Assembly: GCF_015100395.1 (NCBI RefSeq)
Contig: NZ_AP022847.1
Span: 1,242,501 to 1,306,500 of the forward strand
DNA from: Nitrosophilus alvini
Lineage (GTDB): Bacteria > Campylobacterota > Campylobacteria > Campylobacterales > Nitratiruptoraceae
DNA: 64,000 nucleotides
Reading direction: 5' to 3'
Below, piece after piece: positions 13,058-58,593 of the stretch. The notes under the pieces are model-generated. The model was not told the DNA's origin and did not search any database. It saw nothing but the letters and a program-made list of their open reading frames with translations. The position numbers were made by a program, and so were the translations under genes. Every line of letters begins with the position of its first letter. Within the stretch, counting starts at the first letter, position 1.

Positions 13058-13819
13058 TTATATCTTAAATCTTGTTTTATCAAAGAAAGTATCTTCATGT
13101 ATATGTTTAAATGAGGTTTTTATATATTTGAAAACATCTTTATACTCTTTTTCAAGTGAGTTTAAAAACTCTTTCATCTGTGCTCTTGCATAGGGCATTT
13201 TTACATCAAATCTCATAGAAGGACACATCTCATCTCCTATCAAAGGAAAACCGTTCTTTTCGGCACACGCCCTTAGCTGCTTCTCTCTCGCCTCTATGAG
13301 GGGTCTTATTACATAGAGTCCTTTTGCAGTTTTGTAAATAGGAGGCATAGACCTCATCGTTCCGTTGTAGAACATATTCATAAAAAAACTCTCTACTGCA
13401 TCATCAAGATGGTGCCCGAGTGCAAGTTTGTTGTATCCGCCTTTAAGCGCAGCGGTATATAGAGCTCCTCTTCTCATTCTTGAAAAAAAACTGCAAAAAG
13501 AGCTATTTTGTCTTATCTTCTCCTGGGCTATGGAAAAGATCTCAGTCTCATAAACCTCAAAAGGGATATCATACTCTTCACAGTGTGCTTTAAGGGCGTC
13601 AAACCTCTCGCCCATTCCATAACTTACAGTAACCGCTTTGAATTCAAAATCAAAAGGAGCCACTCTTTGCATATGTTTGAGAATATGAGCTAAAGTGAGA
13701 GAATCTTTCCCCCCGCTAAGACCAAGCAAAATCTTGTCTTTATCCTTTATGAGTCCGTATTCTCCATTTGTTCTGCCCACTACTCTCAAAAGTTTTTTAC
13801 TTATCTCGGCTCTCTTCAC
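13058..13819 (-). CDS. ttcA: TtcA-like PP-loop tRNA sulfurtransferase with altered Cys motif
   Basis: N-type PP-loop ATPase of the TtcA/TilS superfamily, 253 aa. SGGKDS (about residues 35-40) binds ATP; the TtcA hallmarks SRMRRG, LGHHLDDA, NMFYNG and RPLIEAREK follow. TtcA makes 2-thiocytidine at tRNA position 32 using an Fe-S cluster held by a CxxC pair and a later Cys. Here the CxxC pair reads CSFF (second Cys is Phe), while the later Cys (EMCPS) is present. The start is GTG with GGAG at 7 nt. Its position after fabD-mtnN matches my recollection of Campylobacter. Confidence 0.8.
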   Translation of the reverse strand: MKRAEISKKLLRVVGRTNGEYGLIKDKDKILLGLSGGKDSLTLAHILKHMQRVAPFDFEFKAVTVSYGMGERFDALKAHCEEYDIPFEVYETEIFSIAQEKIRQNSSFCSFFSRMRRGALYTAALKGGYNKLALGHHLDDAVESFFMNMFYNGTMRSMPPIYKTAKGLYVIRPLIEAREKQLRACAEKNGFPLIGDEMCPSMRFDVKMPYARAQMKEFLNSLEKEYKDVFKYIKTSFKHIHEDTFFDKTRFKI

Positions 13820-13846
13820 CCAAATGCTCCTTCATTTCCTTTTTTC

Positions 13847-13930
13847 GTAATTAGTAACTGATGATTGATTAATTGATAGATAGTTGATAGTGGATTGGTT
13901 AATGACTGGCTCTTGTCAACACCACACTAA
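13847..13930 (-). repeat. Eroded copy of the composite hexamer/heptamer intergenic repeat
   Basis: Read on the minus strand it starts with TTTAGTGTGGTGTT (a shortened hexamer part), then AACCAATC, then irregular heptamer-like units (CACTATC, AACTATC) and ends CAGTTACTAATTACG. Order and spacing match the four clear copies at 30.6, 37.6, 43.0 and 57.2 kb. It also lies between the 3' end of one gene (mtnN) and the 5' end of the next (ttcA) on the same strand. The rest of this 181-bp gap holds no other feature that I can see. Confidence 0.5.
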
Positions 13931-27399: not shown

Positions 27400-28254
27400 C
27401 TAATAGCTTTTTCTTAAATATTTTTTCAAAAAGTAACGAATCTCTTCATTATTATCAAATTTTATAGTCAGTTTATTGCCATGAATTTTGAAGTTAAGAT
27501 TTGAATCTTTCAACGTTTTTTCAATCTCTTCCATATTTAAATCTTCTCTATTTTTGGACTTTTGCTTCTCTTTTTTCGGCTTTGTTTTATTTACAAGTTT
27601 TTCTACATCACGAACACTCAGTTTCTGTCCCGTTATAGAATCAACTATGATTTTCTGTTTATCCTCTTCGAGCCCTACCAAAACTTTAGCATGTCCCGGC
27701 GTAATTTTACCGGCTTTTAAAGCCTCTTTTGCATAATCAGAAAGCATAAGAAGACGCAAAGTATTTGTAATGTGTGTTCTGCTCTTTTTTACGATATTGG
27801 AAAGCTCTTCATGTGTAATGGAGTATTCGTCGATAAGCTCTTTGTACGAGAGGGCAAGGTCAACCGGATTTAGGTCTTCTCTTTGGATATTTTCGATAAG
27901 AGCAAGTTCTCTGTATTTAGAAGGTTCAATCTTTGCCACTATTGCTTTAATTTTATCAAGCCCTGCCAGTCTACTTGCCCTTACTCTTCTTTCGCCTGCT
28001 ATGAGCATAAAACCATCTATATCTTCTATAACGATTACTGGCTGTAGAAGTCCGTGCCTTTTGATAGACTCGGCAAGCTCATTTAAAGATTTTTCATCAA
28101 ATACTCGCCTTGGCTGAAAAGGGTTTGGCCTGATAGCATCTATATCGATCTCTACGACACTGTTTTCATCACTGTCTGGTATCTCTTTTTCATACGCTTC
28201 AGCCACTTCGCTTAAAATTGCTCCGAGTCCGCGTCCCAATGTCTTTCTGCTCAT
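27400..28254 (-). CDS. parB: Chromosome partitioning protein ParB
   Basis: parS-binding CTPase clamp, 284 aa. It opens with [12 protein letters not shown]; the CTP-binding motif [12 protein letters not shown] (about residues 95-106) and helix-turn-helix ([23 protein letters not shown], at about 152-174) follow, and a Lys-rich linker leads to a C-terminal dimerisation domain. The ATG at 28254 lies 1 bp after the parA stop with GGAAG upstream; an in-frame ATG nine codons earlier would overlap parA. No parS palindrome was seen nearby. Confidence 0.95.
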
Positions 28255-29041: not shown

Positions 29042-29673
29042 CTTAAACAGTAAATCCTTTGGCTGTTGATCTCTAATGAACCGTCTTCGCACAATCTTGC
29101 ATTTTCAAGAGAAATTTTTTTCTCTTGAACATGAACAAGAAACTTTTTGCTTCTGTGAAATTCTAACTTATATTTACTAAAAATTTGCTTCCATGAATGA
29201 GATTTTTTCAATTCGGAAAAATAGTTTTTCAAAATATCCTCTTTTTCGATTTGGATATCGAGTTTGCCGTAGCCATGTGGCGCATGTGCCGTATTTAGGC
29301 CTATTCCGCATATCAGAGCCTCGGCAGCCTTGGTTGTAATCGTACCTCCAATCTTTCTGCTTTCTATATAAAAATCATTTGGCCATTTCAGCCATATACC
29401 CGAACCCCGCACCGATAAAATCTCTTTTAGAATATAAGAAAAATAAATAGAAGCAGACACTATCGGAAGATCATCTGGAAGTGAAGAAATTTCATATGCA
29501 AAAGAGAAAAAAAGATTCCCCTTTTCGCTTTTCCATTCATTTCCCCTGCTTCCGATTCCCGATGTCTGAAAATTTGCCGCAACAGCAATCGGCGCGGAAA
29601 GCTCCTTTGATTTTATTTTTTCAATAAGATATTTCTGCGTAGAGTCAATCTCGTCAAACCAGACAATCTCCAA
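29038..29673 (-). CDS. birA: Biotin-[acetyl-CoA-carboxylase] ligase, catalytic domain only
   Basis: Attaches biotin to the AccB carrier protein. The 211-aa protein begins at the catalytic domain (IVWFDEIDSTQKYL), with GIGSRGNEW as the biotinyl-AMP loop and LKWPNDFYI with the catalytic Lys. The N-terminal DNA-binding domain found in repressor-type BirA is absent, so it should not regulate biotin genes. It overlaps fmt by 20 bp. Confidence 0.92.
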   Translation of the reverse strand: MEIVWFDEIDSTQKYLIEKIKSKELSAPIAVAANFQTSGIGSRGNEWKSEKGNLFFSFAYEISSLPDDLPIVSASIYFSYILKEILSVRGSGIWLKWPNDFYIESRKIGGTITTKAAEALICGIGLNTAHAPHGYGKLDIQIEKEDILKNYFSELKKSHSWKQIFSKYKLEFHRSKKFLVHVQEKKISLENARLCEDGSLEINSQRIYCLR

Positions 29674-30568
29674 CTTTCAGTCTCCTTCCTCTGATAAAAC
29701 TTGCTATATCCATCTCTTTTTTCGAAGGGGGCTGAACCGTTATAACGGAAATGGTTCCTTTTTTGCACCCAATGACTGCTTCATTGTCCGAAATATCAAG
29801 AATTACTCCGGGTCTGTTTTGACTTTCGGTTTCGACAAGTCTTATCTTTTTAAGTTTGAGGCCGCTGTTTGTATAGATACCGGGCCAGGATATAAAGGCT
29901 CTGTATCTGTTGTATATATCCAAAGCTGAATCGAAAGAGACAAGTCCATCGCTTTTGTTTATCTTTTTACAATACGACGCATCAACATCGTTCTGAGATA
30001 GTGGTTTTATCTCATCAAAATTTCTCAAAACTGTAGGCGTAAGCTCGGCAGCACATTCAGAAAGCTTTTCAAAAAGAGTCAGGGCATTGTCCTCTTCTCC
30101 TATTTTCTCATATCTGTACGCCAGGATATCTCCCGTATCGAGCCCTTCATCCATAAGCATAGCTGTAACTCCCGTAATTTCATCACTGTTTAAAAGAGCC
30201 TGCTGTATAGGGCTGGCTCCTCTGTATTTGGGCAATAATGAAGCATGAAGATTTATACAAGGAGCAATATCTAGTATATTTTTGGGCAGTATCTGTCCAT
30301 ATGCTGCAACTACGATAAAATCAGGTGAAATATCTTTTAATATCTCTTCGCTGTTATCACCTTTTAGGGAGTGTGGCTGATATATTTTCATACCTGGATG
30401 AGCTTGCAAAAGAAATTTTTTCACATCCGGGGGAGTGAGTATCTTTTTTCTCCCTACAGGCTTGTCCGGCTGTGTAAAAACCGCCGCTACATCCATATCC
30501 GGCATTTCAAAAAGTTTTTTCAAAATTTTTGTTGCGTAATCAGGAGTTCCCATAAAAACAATACGCAT
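29654..30568 (-). CDS. fmt: Methionyl-tRNA formyltransferase
   Basis: Formylates Met-tRNAi for initiation, 304 aa. RIVFMGTPDYA opens the N-terminal domain; NLHASLLPKYRGASPIQ holds the catalytic Asn/His; the DEGLDTGDIL segment follows, and the OB-like C-terminal domain binds tRNA. Its ribosome-binding site (AAGGAG) lies just downstream of a composite intergenic repeat (30584-30672). Confidence 0.96.
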   Translation of the reverse strand: MRIVFMGTPDYATKILKKLFEMPDMDVAAVFTQPDKPVGRKKILTPPDVKKFLLQAHPGMKIYQPHSLKGDNSEEILKDISPDFIVVAAYGQILPKNILDIAPCINLHASLLPKYRGASPIQQALLNSDEITGVTAMLMDEGLDTGDILAYRYEKIGEEDNALTLFEKLSECAAELTPTVLRNFDEIKPLSQNDVDASYCKKINKSDGLVSFDSALDIYNRYRAFISWPGIYTNSGLKLKKIRLVETESQNRPGVILDISDNEAVIGCKKGTISVITVQPPSKKEMDIASFIRGRRLKVGDCLV

Positions 30569-30583: not shown

Positions 30584-30672
30584 TTCGTGACTCGTAATTG
30601 GTGACTCGTGATTCGTGACTGGTTTTATCTCACACTCACACTCACACCCACACTCACACCAATACTAACACT
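30584..30672 (-). repeat. Composite hexamer/heptamer intergenic repeat, copy 2 (proB-fmt)
   Basis: Read with the flanking genes (minus strand): GAGTGTTAG, then GTGTGAGTGTGGGTGTGAG-type hexamers (about six units), the spacer AGATAAAACCAG, and heptamers TCACGAA/TCACGAG (five units, one as TTACGAG). The array begins inside the end of proB and supplies its last codons and stop (GAG TGT TAG). On the + strand it reads as CACACT and TTCGTGA units. Confidence 0.85.
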
Positions 30673-31423
30673 CAAAAAGCGTTCCGCCCCTGTGTTCACC
30701 TTTTAGCAGAAAACTTTTCACATCACTCAGGTCAAATCCACTTGCAAGAAAAACCTTGCGTCCATGCTTCAACAGAAAATCGGCAGCTTTCAGTTTTGTT
30801 ACTATACCGCCTGTAGCAAATCTGTAATTGGGAGTATATTCACATTCAAGCTCTTTAGGATCTATATGGCTTACAACTTTTTGCAGTTTTGCATCAGGAT
30901 ATTTTTTAGGATCTTTGTCATAATATCCATCTATATCGGATAGGATTACCAGCATTTGGGCATCAAAATAGTATGCAACATGCGCTGAGAGCTGATCATT
31001 ATCTCCGAAAACAAGCTCTTCCGTCGCAGTAACGTCGTTTTCATTTATAATAGGTATAACCCTGTTTTTCAAAAGCACTTCAATGGCATTTCTTGCATAC
31101 GCAGTCCTCTTTCTTGAGTCAAAATCATCTGCAGTCAAAAGAACCTGTGCACAGACAATACCGTGTTTTTCAAACTTCTTCTGATAACTCTTCATTAAAA
31201 AAGGCTGACCTATGGCCGCAAGGGCCTGTCTGTTTGCTATCAGTTTTTTGTCCAGTTTCACTCTCGTATATCCTGCCGCTACGGCTCCAGAACTTACAAG
31301 GATAATCTCGAAGTTTTGTGCCGCTTCAGAAAGGAAATCCACAAGTTTCTGCATACGCTCCCTGGCAAGCCTGTTGTTTTCGGTCAATACTGCACTTCCT
31401 ACTTTTACAACGATTCTTTTCAA
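30665..31423 (-). CDS. proB: Glutamate 5-kinase, short form without PUA domain
   Basis: First step of proline synthesis, phosphorylating glutamate. The 252-aa amino-acid-kinase domain is complete: [11 protein letters not shown] (start), [35 protein letters not shown] (split motif at about 133-158) and [13 protein letters not shown]. The C-terminal PUA domain of E. coli ProB (367 aa) is missing, as in other Campylobacterota. The final residues FEC and the stop codon come from the edge of an intergenic repeat. The start overlaps the obg stop (ATGA). Confidence 0.93.
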
Positions 31424-36434: not shown

Positions 36435-37529
36435 TTAAAATTTCTCTATCACTTTTTTGAAAACTCTGTAAAGTTTTTCCACCTCATCAACAGATGTTCT
36501 TTCGTTCGGTGCATGAATAGTATCGTTTATTACACCAAATTCCACCGTTTTTACACCAAATTCCCCAAAAAATCTCGCATCGCTTGTTCCTCCGGCGGTT
36601 GAGTGTTTCGGAGTCGTTCCTGTAACCTCTTTTATCGACTCATCGATGATTTTTACTATTTTTGAATTGGGATCGGTCAGAAAGGGTTTTGCGCTTTGAG
36701 AAATTCTGAGTGTATAGTTCATACCGCTAAAATATCTGTGTACAAAATCTTCCACATCTTTTATGGTAGTTTTCGTTGAGTTTCTTACATTGAACATCAT
36801 CTTCAACTTTCCGGGCGTCACGTTAGTCACTTCCATACCGGCTCTTATATCGGTTATGACAAATTTACTCGGAGCAAAAAACTCATCCCCTTCGTCAAGA
36901 TCGGCTCCTGCCATATGAGGAAGCACCTGGGCCACTTTATGTATAGGATTAACAGCTTTTTCCGGATACGCGGCATGTCCCTGTCTGCCTGTTTTTTCTA
37001 TAACTCCGTTTATAGAGCCTCTTCTACCTATCTTTACCGCATCACCGAAGAGTTTTTCACAGGTGGGCTCAGCCACTACCGCAAAATCAGGCATTAGCCC
37101 GATTTTTCTCAACTCTTCAAGTACAATTTTCGTTCCGTATTTTGCATCACCCTCTTCATCGCTTGTAAGAAGCAGAGATAAAATTCCGTTGAAGCTTCCT
37201 GTCTCCTTTACAGCCTGGACAAATGCGGCAACACCGCTTTTCATATCCTGCGCACCTCTTGCATATATGTATCCATCTTTTTCTACAGGCTCAAAGGGGT
37301 CACTATTCCACCCGTCTCCGGGAGGCACAACGTCAACATGTCCTGCAAAACAGAGATGCTCACCTTCGCCAAATCTCTTGTAAAGAAAAAGATTTTTAAC
37401 ATCGTACTTGTTAACCCATATCGCTTCAAAGTCCGGAAGATAATCTTTGATAAAATCAAGACTCCCAGCATCATGTGGCGTTACAGAGTGAAATTTCAGA
37501 AGTTTTTTAAAAAGCTCTATTACATCCAT
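36435..37529 (-). CDS. dapE: Succinyl-diaminopimelate desuccinylase
   Basis: A 364-aa zinc hydrolase that frees LL-diaminopimelate from its N-succinyl form (lysine and peptidoglycan synthesis). [12 protein letters not shown] (about residues 65-76), GAQDMKSG (about 97-104) and [11 protein letters not shown] hold the metal ligands and catalytic Glu. It converges on the HATPase-GNAT gene with a 10-bp gap. The PLP aminotransferase at 48.8 kb could be its upstream partner in the pathway. Confidence 0.94.
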
Positions 37530-37545
37530 TTTTTCCTCTATTCTT

Positions 37546-37599
37546 AATTCGTGATTCGTGATTCGTGAATGGTTTTACCCACACTCACACTCACACTCT
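37546..37599 (-). repeat. Composite hexamer/heptamer intergenic repeat, copy 3 (lipoprotein-dapE)
   Basis: On the minus strand, directly after the TAG of the lipoprotein gene: AGAGTGTGAGTGTGAGTGTG (three hexamers), GGTAAAACCA, then TTCACGAATCACGAATCACG (three heptamers) and AATT. It is the shortest and cleanest copy. It ends 17 bp before the dapE start codon. Confidence 0.88.
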
Positions 37600-37935
37600 C
37601 TATCTCGGACTCTCATAAAATATATAATTTGTAGAATAATCACTAAACTCAAAATATACTTTCTTCTCGCCTTCATCCACTTTATAGTTGAAGTTTTCAT
37701 CTAAAAAACCGTAACCGTACCTATAAGGTCTGGGTCTGTTGTCACTTGTACCGTATGCAGTAGAGATTTTGTCAATTTTTATAAATCTTTTTACCAATTT
37801 ATCTCCTGCATATATATCAAGAACACCGTTTGTACCGGTCCAGTTTTGTACTGCACGTCCAAGTTTATTCTGAACTTCCTGCGTACATCCTCCAAGTAGC
37901 AGAAGTGCGGCAACTGAAGCGAGAATTATTCGCAT
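37600..37935 (-). CDS. Small predicted lipoprotein
   Basis: A 111-aa protein with a lipoprotein signal (MRIILASVAALLLLGGC, lipobox LGGC, mature from Cys17). The remainder is beta-rich, with many Tyr and Arg, and shows no family that I recognise. It should be exported and lipid-anchored in the envelope. Promoter and ribosome-binding site (AAGGAG) are clear. Confidence 0.8.
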   Translation of the reverse strand: MRIILASVAALLLLGGCTQEVQNKLGRAVQNWTGTNGVLDIYAGDKLVKRFIKIDKISTAYGTSDNRPRPYRYGYGFLDENFNYKVDEGEKKVYFEFSDYSTNYIFYESPR

Positions 37936-42195: not shown

Positions 42196-42999
42196 ATGGG
42201 TAAAAATATATTTATTCTGGCTTTGGAAGATTTTTTGAGTACTAAATTTCTTGCTCTTACAACCGTTCCTTTTTTCGCTACTTTGATCATCGCTTTTGTC
42301 CTGCTTTTTCAGATTTCCGGAGAATTTTTCGATCTTTTAAACAGTGCGGTTACGAACCCCGATGCGGCGGCGGTGCAAGGAAACGAACTTGCCGAATTTT
42401 TAAAAGAGTATCCTTTTCTCTCCGTAATATTCGGAAGTTTTATATTCAAAGCGATAGCCGGAACATTTTTCTATATCATAGGAGGAGGACTTGCAATAAT
42501 GTTTTCTACAATAGTTGCGGTTATCGTCATAGGATTTTTCACTTCATACATAGTGGCTGAAATACACAAAAGACACTATCGCTCTATCGATATCTCATCC
42601 GGGTATGATATATTCTCTTATATATGGTTCGTACTTAAGAGCTTGGCGCTTTTTATGCTTTTTTTTATTGTGACTCTACCTTTTTACTTTATTCCGGTTA
42701 TAAATCTGGTAGCAATAAATGCACCCTTTTATTTCCTCTTCTCAAGGCTTCTTGCCGTTGATGTAGCAGGAGAGATATTTGCCCCAAAAGAGTTTGAACA
42801 GATTTTGAGAGAAAACAGAAAAGAGGTGGGAATAACAACACTCATACTCTATCTTATCTCTCTTCTTCCCTTTGCCGGTATGCTTCTTCAGGTATATTTC
42901 GTATCAGTCCTGACCCATCTTTTTTTCAATATAAAAAAAGAGCGTATTTCGAAAAAAAGTTCTCCAAAAGAGATATATGAGGCAGAAATTGTTGAATAG
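42196..42999 (+). CDS. EI24/CysZ-like integral membrane protein
   Basis: A 267-aa inner-membrane protein with about four to six TM helices (about residues 20-42, 72-112, 145-180, 215-240) and an acidic C-terminus. The pattern matches the EI24 domain family that includes CysZ, a sulfate permease, but similarity by eye is loose; a transport role is possible and unproven. AAAGGTGAG precedes the ATG. The stop codon is directly followed by a composite repeat. Confidence 0.7.
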   Translation: MGKNIFILALEDFLSTKFLALTTVPFFATLIIAFVLLFQISGEFFDLLNSAVTNPDAAAVQGNELAEFLKEYPFLSVIFGSFIFKAIAGTFFYIIGGGLAIMFSTIVAVIVIGFFTSYIVAEIHKRHYRSIDISSGYDIFSYIWFVLKSLALFMLFFIVTLPFYFIPVINLVAINAPFYFLFSRLLAVDVAGEIFAPKEFEQILRENRKEVGITTLILYLISLLPFAGMLLQVYFVSVLTHLFFNIKKERISKKSSPKEIYEAEIVE

Positions 43000-43080
43000 T
43001 GTTAGTGAGAGTGAGAGTGTGAGTGTGAGTGTGGGTGTGGGTGTGGGTGTGAAATGAAACCAATCACGAATCACGAATTG
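43000..43080 (+). repeat. Composite hexamer/heptamer intergenic repeat, copy 4 (inverted relative to the others)
   Basis: Directly after the TAG of the EI24-type gene: TGTTAGTGAGAGTGAGAGTG, then GTGTGAG and GTGTGGG hexamers (about eight units in all), GAAATGAAACCA, then ATCACGAATCACGAATTG. It is the longest hexamer array of the family and the only copy on the + strand; the gene reading into it is also on the + strand, so the orientation rule holds. The downstream neighbour is convergent, so no start codon follows. Confidence 0.88.
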
Positions 43081-43091
43081 GGTTGGACTCA

Positions 43092-44405
43092 TCACTTTTG
43101 CTGTTTTTTCAAAAGCATAACCCTGTATATAATGAAAGATACCGTTATTATGGCATATACAAAAACTATTTTGTAAAGAGTTTGCGGTTCGTTTTTTGCA
43201 AGATAATCTATCATCAGATAGAGTGTAGCTAACATTAAAAGAATAGAGAGAATAATGACAAAAAGAGAAGAGTTGGTCTCTTTGTACAGTTTAAGATTGG
43301 CAATTGTGACAAAAAATGAAACAAGCAGAAAAGTCATACTCGAAAAACTGATAATCGCATCCAGTTTTCCAAAAAGAACAAACAGCGCAGCCGCCATATA
43401 CATAAAAAAGAGAGCATTTTTAGGTATGAAACTACCGTTCATCTTTGAAAAAACTCTTGGAAAAACCCCATCTTTGGCGATATCTGCCATCATTCTGCTC
43501 GCCCCGAAAAATGTACCGTTTATAGCCGAACTTGTAGCAAAAAGCGCAGCCAGACTTGCCGCTATAAAACCGTACTTTCCGAAAGCCGGTTTAAGAGCTT
43601 CGGCTACAGCATACTCTTCAGCCTTCAAAATCTCCTCCGGGGTAAGTATCCCTGTAACGGCAATTGCAAGTATCACATATGTCAATGTTACGATAAAAAC
43701 CGATATATAGATACTTCTTGGGATATTTTTTTCGGGATTTTTTGTCTCTTCGACAGAGTTTGTAACAAGCTGAAAACCCTCGAATGCCACAAAAACAATG
43801 GCTCCACTCAAGAATACAGCCGCAACGCCTTTATCAAAAAGAGGGGTGAAATGATCAGGCTTTATAAAATACAGACCTGCTATGCCCATACCAAGCAATA
43901 CCAAAAGTTTCAGATATACAAGCAGATCCTCACTTCTTCCCGTGGTCTTTACACCCATAAGATTTATGAAAAGAAAAACCGTAAGTATCAGAAAACCGAA
44001 AACATCTTTCGCCAATATGCTATTTTCAAACCCAAACATTGCGGAAGCATAGGAGCCGAAAGTATAGGCATAGAGTGCCAGTGTACCTATATATCCTACT
44101 ATAACGCTCCATCCTACGAATGCGGCAATGTAACTCTTTTTTGGAAAGGCTCTTTTAAGGTATGTATAGCTTGCACCATCTTTTTTATAGGCAACTGCAA
44201 GTTTGGCGTAGTTATAACCGGCAAAAAGAGCGATTATACCGCCAAGCACAAAAACCAAAAATGTAGCGTGCCCGGAAATCTGATCGGCCATTCCAAGAAC
44301 AGAAAATATTCCTCCGCCTATCATCGAACCGATAGCTATGGCAACAAGCTCTTTCAGTCCGAGTTTTTCACTTTCGGGTATCTTTTTTTCACTATTTTTA
44401 TACAT
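43092..44405 (-). CDS. APC-superfamily amino-acid permease
   Basis: A 437-aa transporter with about 12 TM helices. The TM1 signature AIAIGSMIGGGIFSVLG (about residues 24-40) and the helix-loop-helix region with GAIVFVAFEGFQLVTNSVEE define the APC amino-acid permease family. The substrate is unknown. The ATG at 44405 follows GAGGGA; an ATG at 44417, overlapping the mutS2 stop, is an alternative. Confidence 0.85.
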   Translation of the reverse strand: MYKNSEKKIPESEKLGLKELVAIAIGSMIGGGIFSVLGMADQISGHATFLVFVLGGIIALFAGYNYAKLAVAYKKDGASYTYLKRAFPKKSYIAAFVGWSVIVGYIGTLALYAYTFGSYASAMFGFENSILAKDVFGFLILTVFLFINLMGVKTTGRSEDLLVYLKLLVLLGMGIAGLYFIKPDHFTPLFDKGVAAVFLSGAIVFVAFEGFQLVTNSVEETKNPEKNIPRSIYISVFIVTLTYVILAIAVTGILTPEEILKAEEYAVAEALKPAFGKYGFIAASLAALFATSSAINGTFFGASRMMADIAKDGVFPRVFSKMNGSFIPKNALFFMYMAAALFVLFGKLDAIISFSSMTFLLVSFFVTIANLKLYKETNSSLFVIILSILLMLATLYLMIDYLAKNEPQTLYKIVFVYAIITVSFIIYRVMLLKKQQK

Positions 44406-55713: not shown

Positions 55714-57254
<1,541 letters not shown>

Positions 57255-57255
57255 T

Positions 57256-58593
57256 TTACCCCAATGCTCTTTCCAGACTCAATGCCCCGTCAAAAAGAGT
57301 CTGCTCTTCAAAATGGTTTCCTATAAGCTGAAGGCCTACAGGAAGCCCTTCCTCTGTCTCGTCAACCGGAATACTTATAGCGGGCAGACCGGCAAGATTT
57401 ACTCCTATTGTATAAACGTCGCTCAGATACATTTCAAGAGGATCTTTTTTACTTCCAAACTCAAAGGCCGGAGTTGGAGCTACCGGTGAGAGTATGAGAT
57501 CCGCATCTTCAAAAACTTTTGCATATTCGTCTTTTATCAGATGTCTGACTTTTTGCGCTTTCAGATAGTAAGCATCATAATAGCCGCTCGAGAGAACAAA
57601 AGTTCCAAGAAGTATCCTTCTTTTTACCTCTTCTCCGAAACCTTCGCTTCTTGTTTTAAAATACATCTTTCTAAGAGAGTCTGCTTTTTCCCTGAAACCG
57701 TACCGGACACCGTCGTATCTGCTCAGATTCGTACTTGCTTCCGCGGTTGCGACTATATAATATGCCGAGATGTCATATTTTGCATCCATAAGCTCACATG
57801 AGACTATCTCGTGACCCTCTTTCTTAAGGGCATCTATCGCTTTTCTATATGCTTTTTGCACCTCTTCACTTGCATCTTTTACATATTTTTCTATAACTGC
57901 TATTTTAAGCTTTCTATCCGGATTAAGATTTGAAGCTACGGGAGAGTAGACCATACTGGCACTCGTACTGTCTTTCGGATCATGCCCTGAAATAATATCG
58001 TATAGAATAGCCGCATCTTCTACATTTTGTGTCATAGGCCCTATTTGATCAAGACTTGAACTATAAGCGGCAAGACCAAATCTGCTTACCCTTCCGTATG
58101 TTGGCTTCATACCCACACATCCGCAAAAAGCCGCAGGTTGTCTTATACTTCCACCAGTATCGCTTCCAAGAGCCGCTACTGCCAGGCCCGCAGCAACCGC
58201 AGCGGCACTGCCTCCGCTGCTGCCTCCCGGAACTCTGTTCTTGTCTTTTGGATTTAGTGTTTTGCCGTAAAAACTGGTTTCGGTAGAACTTCCCATAGCA
58301 AATTCATCCATATTTGTACGTCCGAAAGGTGAGAGTCCCTTTTCAAGCATTCTATCTATAACGGTTGCATTATATGGTGCTATATAGCCTTGCAATATTT
58401 TACTTGCACAGGTTATCTCCCACTCTTTTACCTGTATATTGTCTTTTATAGCTATAGGTACTCCGTCGCCGAAATCTTTCACATCTATATATGCATTTAT
58501 TTCGCTGTTTTCTTCTATTTTTGCCGCCAGATCTTTTTTCAGTTCTGCAAGCTCCTCTTTGGAAAGTTTCAGAGCCTCTTTAAGTGTTATCAA
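57256..58593 (-). CDS. gatA: Aspartyl/glutamyl-tRNA amidotransferase subunit A
   Basis: Amidase subunit of GatCAB, which makes Gln-tRNA and Asn-tRNA, 445 aa. The Ser-cisSer-Lys triad is visible: VPIAIKDNI (Lys about 53), [14 protein letters not shown] and [14 protein letters not shown]. The start is TTG with a perfect AGGAGG 5 nt upstream; that site also encodes the end of the tiny upstream ORF. gatB and gatC are elsewhere. Confidence 0.96.

Follow-up and report, generated by a model that had tools for sequence, protein, structure and literature searches.

Composite hexamer-heptamer repeats of Nitrosophilus alvini show a genome-wide polarity relative to gene boundaries

Repeat copies in the analysed window

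The window analysed in this study is a 64,000 bp stretch of the Nitrosophilus alvini genome (contig NZ_AP022847.1, positions 1,242,501–1,306,500). It contains four clear copies of a composite repeat element and one eroded copy (Table 1). Read on the sense strand, the composite consists of an array of hexamers, (GTGTKR)n, a short core that mostly ends in CC, and an array of heptamers, (AATCACG/AATTACG)n.

Table 1 Composite repeat elements and their flanking genes (positions in the window unless stated otherwise)
Feature	Position	Strand	Parts	Flanking genes	Pfam support
Eroded heptamer remnant before PP-loop (ttcA-type) gene	13846–13859	−		ttcA-type gene 13058–13819 (−)	ttcA-type
Composite, proB/fmt gap	30586–30671	−	hexamers about 30630–30671, heptamers 30586–30620	proB 30665–31423 (−), fmt 29654–30568 (−)	proB, fmt
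Composite, lipoprotein-like ORF/dapE gap	37543–37595	−	hexamers 37577–37595, heptamers 37543–37570	lipoprotein-like ORF 37600–37935 (−), dapE 36435–37529 (−)	dapE
Composite, EI24-type/permease gap	42999–43075	+	hexamers 42999–43052, core 43053–43061, heptamers 43062–43075	convergent: EI24-type gene 42196–42999 (+), amino acid permease gene 43092–44405 (−)	EI24
Composite, gatA/guaB gap	57169–57249	−	hexamers about 57231–57249, heptamers 57169–57223	gatA 57256–58593 (−), guaB 55714–57159 (−)	gatA, guaB
Composite in rRNA operon	L055 about 2060–2140 (genome 1448062–1448136)	sense		tRNA-Ala, 23S	

As stated in a preliminary description of this DNA, the hexamer end lies at the stop codon of the upstream gene in all four clear copies. 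The TAG stop codon of proB is located inside the hexamer array (GAG TGT TAG), while 3 nt separate the stop codon of the lipoprotein-like ORF from the hexamers. The G of the EI24-type TAG stop is at the same time the first letter of the first hexamer GTG, and the hexamers behind gatA begin 5 nt past its stop codon. At positions 30665–30673 the final codons and the stop codon of proB belong to the array, which thus supplies the end of the gene. The heptamer end was described as lying just before the ribosome-binding site (RBS) of the next gene; this is the case for fmt, dapE and guaB, and the copy next to the ttcA-type gene consists of heptamers only. Arrays other than that of the 43.0-kb copy run out into an A-rich leader or an RBS. 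A GC-rich stem with a T run behind it, the mark of an intrinsic terminator, was not found at positions 42900–43200. A search of the 64-kb window against Rfam yielded only four tRNAs, which are located elsewhere, and no match to the elements above the gathering score.

Genome-wide census

Pattern searches on both strands of the genome (1,807,889 bp, one contig) yielded approximately 50 array loci, which were read from the stretches around the pattern matches. Composite elements occupy about 25 intergenic gaps. Each of them takes up the space between two functional units, which may be protein, rRNA or tRNA genes; the G/T-rich hexamer arm follows the end of the first unit and the A/C-rich heptamer arm precedes the second. 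Genes were called with a simple dicodon model and 30 flanking proteins were checked against Pfam; 29 of them gave a match, the lipoprotein-like ORF being the sole exception. The flanking genes are housekeeping genes, and no functional theme common to the genes upstream of composites was apparent among the Pfam-checked flanks.

The units of the arrays are degenerate. GTGTTA and GTGTTG hexamers are found on the outer side, as opposed to GTGTGG next to the core (p = 0.013), and heptamer text reads TTACG on the outer side and TCACC next to the core (p = 0.0016). Array lengths and cores vary freely among the composites. The element loci are clustered, with 15 gaps of less than 6 kb compared to 7.5 expected (p = 0.002), e.g. 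at 311–366 kb and 684–725 kb.

Polarity relative to the flanking genes

Gene calls on both sides were available for 25 composites; two further composites adjoin masked rRNA and are outside this set. Of these 25, 21 are in sense orientation to co-directional genes, one is antisense and three are located between convergent genes. Calculated by hand, the two-sided binomial p for the ratio of 21:1 is about 1e-5, and the ratio changes to 23:2 when degenerate copies are added (sense at 27613 and 1172083, antisense at 1394971). The polarity of the composites is thus confirmed as real, genome-wide and not due to chance. In most copies the first hexamer overlaps the stop codon or starts no more than about 12 nt away, and 9–22 nt usually separate the end of the heptamers from the next start. 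Arrays consisting of hexamers only have no fixed transcript polarity (++ 5, -- 6, +- 3).

The single polarity that the preliminary description gave for the clear copies therefore holds for window copies and for the genome, in which the orientation count it had suggested looked for random orientation and did not find it. Its use of the 43.0-kb copy as a further supporting case does not stand. Between convergent genes an upstream gene reads into the element in any orientation, so this copy satisfies the rule either way round and is silent on polarity.

A composite is also present between tRNA-Ala and 23S in all three rRNA operons (L055, L061 and L045, the far part of the last being masked). These copies begin directly after the CCA of tRNA-Ala, stop short of 23S and are in sense orientation; being paralogous, they were counted as one case. 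They obey the rule with neither a stop codon nor an RBS, which indicates that translation ends are not required. The preliminary description had considered either action in the transcript or insertion coupled with the ends of transcription or translation. Coupling with translation ends is contradicted, since copies are located in rRNA operons and between convergent genes. Fixed-orientation insertion coupled with transcription is weakened, because most hexamer arrays near starts are antisense (5 of 6), whereas 31 of 35 near stops are in sense orientation. The elements may nevertheless act in the transcript. In L055, the spacers between 16S and tRNA-Ile and between tRNA-Ile and tRNA-Ala also have the appearance of paired repeat arms, GAAGG-type text occurring with CCTTCAAC-type text, and AATGAATAATG with CATTCATCATT.

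Avoidance of start codons was considered as the source of the arm order and rejected; on inspection, an inverted composite likewise leaves no start codon by the RBS.

A rule of gene boundaries

The data are better described by a broader rule, in which the G/T-rich strand points outward from whichever gene boundary is nearest. When arrays were scored singly, the outward orientation was found at a ratio of 36:5 for hexamers (p = 8e-7) and 32:7 for heptamers (p = 7e-5). The antisense hexamer-only arrays are mostly located 14–22 nt upstream of start codons. All 25 heptamer arrays with a start as the nearest boundary point to that start. Since the outward rule is identical on either strand, it is a rule of boundaries. 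The inverted composite at 148183 is also in line with it, its heptamers following the stop with their G/T-rich strand and its hexamers facing the next gene with their A/C-rich strand, although scoring by nearest distance places its hexamer part as inward. The location of hexamers at 3′ ends and heptamers at 5′ ends adds a second regularity to the outward rule. A skew from G/T to A/C is also present, in weaker form, in element-free gaps and in relatives, and part of the polarity is therefore a background property of spacers.

The inverted composite (L033, genome positions 148183–148310) is the largest element, with approximately 70 nt of hexamers and 48 nt of heptamers, and faces the opposite way to the genes on either side. 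Its hexamer blocks are duplicated internally and near-identical.

Predicted RNA folding

In the sense transcript an imperfect stem-loop is predicted to be possible, built from 5-bp modules of UGUGA with UCACG. In the other strand, the U-G wobble of the sense module turns into an A-C mismatch, and the sense RNA would therefore fold better. In agreement with this, predicted folds of native elements averaged −16.4 kcal/mol and those of inverted elements −11.8 kcal/mol, with the native orientation being better in 14 of 18 cases (p = 0.0016). Co-adaptation of the two hairpin arms was rejected, as arms exchanged between elements pair no worse than the native ones (p = 0.57) and arm lengths are uncorrelated within elements (r = −0.19). 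Against shuffled sequences, the average z-score is modest and differs little between the strands (−0.85 and −0.74); for two of the four copies in the window, the fold is not improved over that of the shuffles. Swapping halves of whole spacers gave a null result for element spacers and mostly positive results elsewhere, including other phyla, and is hence uninformative. Judged from these predictions, action of the sense element at the transcript level is possible.

Repeats in relatives and other phyla

In a sample of 249 genomes from the order, the present genome (G000), G090 and three members of another family are rich in heptamer arrays, and G000, G077 and G149 in hexamer arrays. Across this sample, the two repeat families are mostly separate. 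Heptamers in G090 and in the genomes of the other family likewise end just before starts, with no hexamers preceding them, and follow the outward rule at ratios of 28:1 and 24:5, respectively. The strict composite pattern had no match in 84,980 species genomes, a collection from which the present or near genomes are possibly absent.

The orthologous gatA-guaB gap has a length of 99 nt here, 103 nt in G077 and G149, 47 nt in G090 and 25–29 nt in G138 and G203. It ranges from about 2 to 26 nt in genus g2 of the same family and from 25 to 103 nt in the other two genera, and its fill differs among the relatives. The proB-fmt gap is long as well (119 nt in G090, 75 nt in G077, 229 nt in G149), again with different fill. 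No clean empty site was found in the orthologous gaps of relatives. Several array-bearing gaps are common to G000 and G090 with other units (before a trpS-like gene, ribH-nusB and others), and one is common to G000 and a genome of another family.

The heptamer AATYACG alone is widespread, occurring in Cyanobacteria (Nostoc, Planktothrix and others), Bacteroidota, Chloroflexota, Xanthomonadales and others. The loci sampled in other phyla have no sense bias (19 ++ vs. 21 --) and no composite. The outward rule is apparently reversed in Bacteroidota (11:34, p = 8e-4, based on crude gene calls), and thus no universal filter can be invoked. Polarity as a general property of the heptamer was rejected on these grounds.

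Comparison with known repeat systems

The STRR heptamers of Cyanobacteria are short tandem repeats dispersed in non-coding DNA. The present arrays share this character, and AATYACG itself also occurs in Nostoc, Planktothrix and others, whereas the loci sampled in other phyla feature neither sense bias nor composite. REP and BIME elements are intergenic, often intra-operonic and can form stem-loops. The present elements are likewise intergenic, often intra-operonic and able to form stem-loops, but they are simple repeats with arms of different period and have no conserved palindrome. Constant ends, terminal inverted repeats and clean empty sites, as expected for MITEs, were not found; ends and cores are variable. 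In phase-variable simple repeats, the number of units differs from strain to strain and switches contingency genes; the units of the present arrays are degenerate and lie beside housekeeping genes.

The GGGNATC repeats of Xanthomonas and Nostoc are short tandem units in intergenic DNA, for the most part with aligned ORFs on either side (Rehm et al. 2015, PMC4692102). Their G-rich strand is the coding strand after stops and the non-coding strand before starts, i.e. it points outward from the nearest gene; related genomes occupy the same gaps and no functional theme was found (PMC4692102). The present arrays share the concentration of tandem units in gaps mainly between aligned ORFs, the outward G-rich strand, the use of some corresponding gaps in related genomes and the lack of a functional theme. 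They differ in that GTGTKR and AATYACG units contain no regular GGG tracts, and in that two families of 6 and 7 nt are joined in fixed order, whereas GGGNATC is a single G-quadruplex-capable heptamer family. The intergenic TAACTGA direct repeats of marine Beggiatoaceae are oriented toward the start in 147 sets and toward the stop in 12, and in many cases only 1 nt lies between array and start codon, usually without an RBS (MacGregor 2015, PMC4679880). The present heptamers share the polarity toward starts; however, their unit is different, and they are followed by an RBS and preceded by a hexamer array.

One-sided rules are therefore already known for other bacterial intergenic repeats (PMC4692102, PMC4679880), and the present case is a two-family version of them. 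Such polarised short repeats were reported separately and without explanation in Beggiatoaceae and in Xanthomonas and Nostoc. Added here are the two-part version, the rRNA-operon copies, which remove translation as a necessary cause, and the finding that gaps of relatives hold other repeat text. The direction in which a repeat faces becomes a testable question about gene boundaries instead of about an inserted unit.

Origin of the composites

Most likely, the composites are neither inserted genes nor a translation signal. With about even confidence we propose that they are spacer-filling short tandem repeats of the STRR-like intergenic heptamer kind, which are under a gene-boundary rule and have grown in place. 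The arrays would have been enlarged in situ by slippage and by site-to-site copying, in spacers that are transcribed anyway, and selection against running into genes would set both edges. The arm order may depend on which unit grows or is permitted next to a 3′ end (TGAGTG/TTAGTG units) and which in an A-rich 5′ leader. The sense stem-loop would be a by-product of the two arms, which the cell may or may not use. Three points stand against this proposal: slippage alone leaves the order of hexamers at stops and heptamers at starts unexplained (21:1), the sense orientation has the more stable predicted RNA fold, as a functional RNA would, and the outward rule is apparently reversed for heptamers in Bacteroidota.

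The main rival is a functional stem-loop of 5-bp modules in the sense RNA that insulates, processes or stabilises the neighbouring cistrons, its orientation being kept because good pairing is confined to the sense RNA. The advantage of native over inverted folds, the modular fold visible in several copies and the presence of copies in rRNA-operon spacers, where stems are normal, argue for it; nevertheless, we consider it rather unlikely, given the costless swap of arms, their uncorrelated lengths, the modest z-scores similar on both strands and the two window copies that fold no better than shuffles. Moreover, units of 6 and 7 nt may share such complementarity by chance (hand estimate about 0.3). 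If the stem-loop is functional, it would be an unusual route to RNA structure in spacers, from simple repeats. A more far-reaching version, which we regard as doubtful, is that the composites across the genome are one class of two-part RNA stem-loops between cistrons (6- and 7-nt arrays with sense-only U-G pairing, in rRNA operons too), which were dispersed as spacer modules and determine how transcripts are processed or how stable they are.

A single composite layout at about 25 dispersed sites, the clustering of loci and the three rRNA-operon copies would also agree with a mobile or copied element that spread as a unit, its orientation being fixed at gene ends by a strand preference of target or enzyme. 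This is improbable, as the elements have no constant ends and are free in length and core, the two repeat families are apart in relatives, and orthologous gaps there hold other repeats instead of being empty; no target duplication was noted. Very improbable is an element acting on translation, with the heptamers as an unstructured A/C-rich leader aiding ribosome loading and the hexamers as a buffer after the stop. The distance of the heptamers to starts at most sites and the hexamer-free arrays at the corresponding position in G090 and another family are in line with it, and a precedent was proposed for TAACTGA (PMC4679880). However, the copies in rRNA operons and between convergent genes are not followed by a start, and RBS accessibility is unchanged by in-silico inversion of the element (0.62 vs. 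0.59, p = 0.12).

Other repeat arrangements in related genomes

In G149 (L097, L098, L100 and L103), hexamer arrays occur as inverted pairs around a common core like ATGGGAAAATGGCRCTTTTG. These arrays with a ATGGGAAAATGGCRCTTTTG-like core represent another repeat element, distinct from the composites, in this related genome. In another family (L113, L121 and L129), heptamer arrays form the inverted outer arms of terminator-like hairpins (AAATTGGACTTTGTCCAATTTTTT; TTATTTGCCTTTGGCAAATAA).
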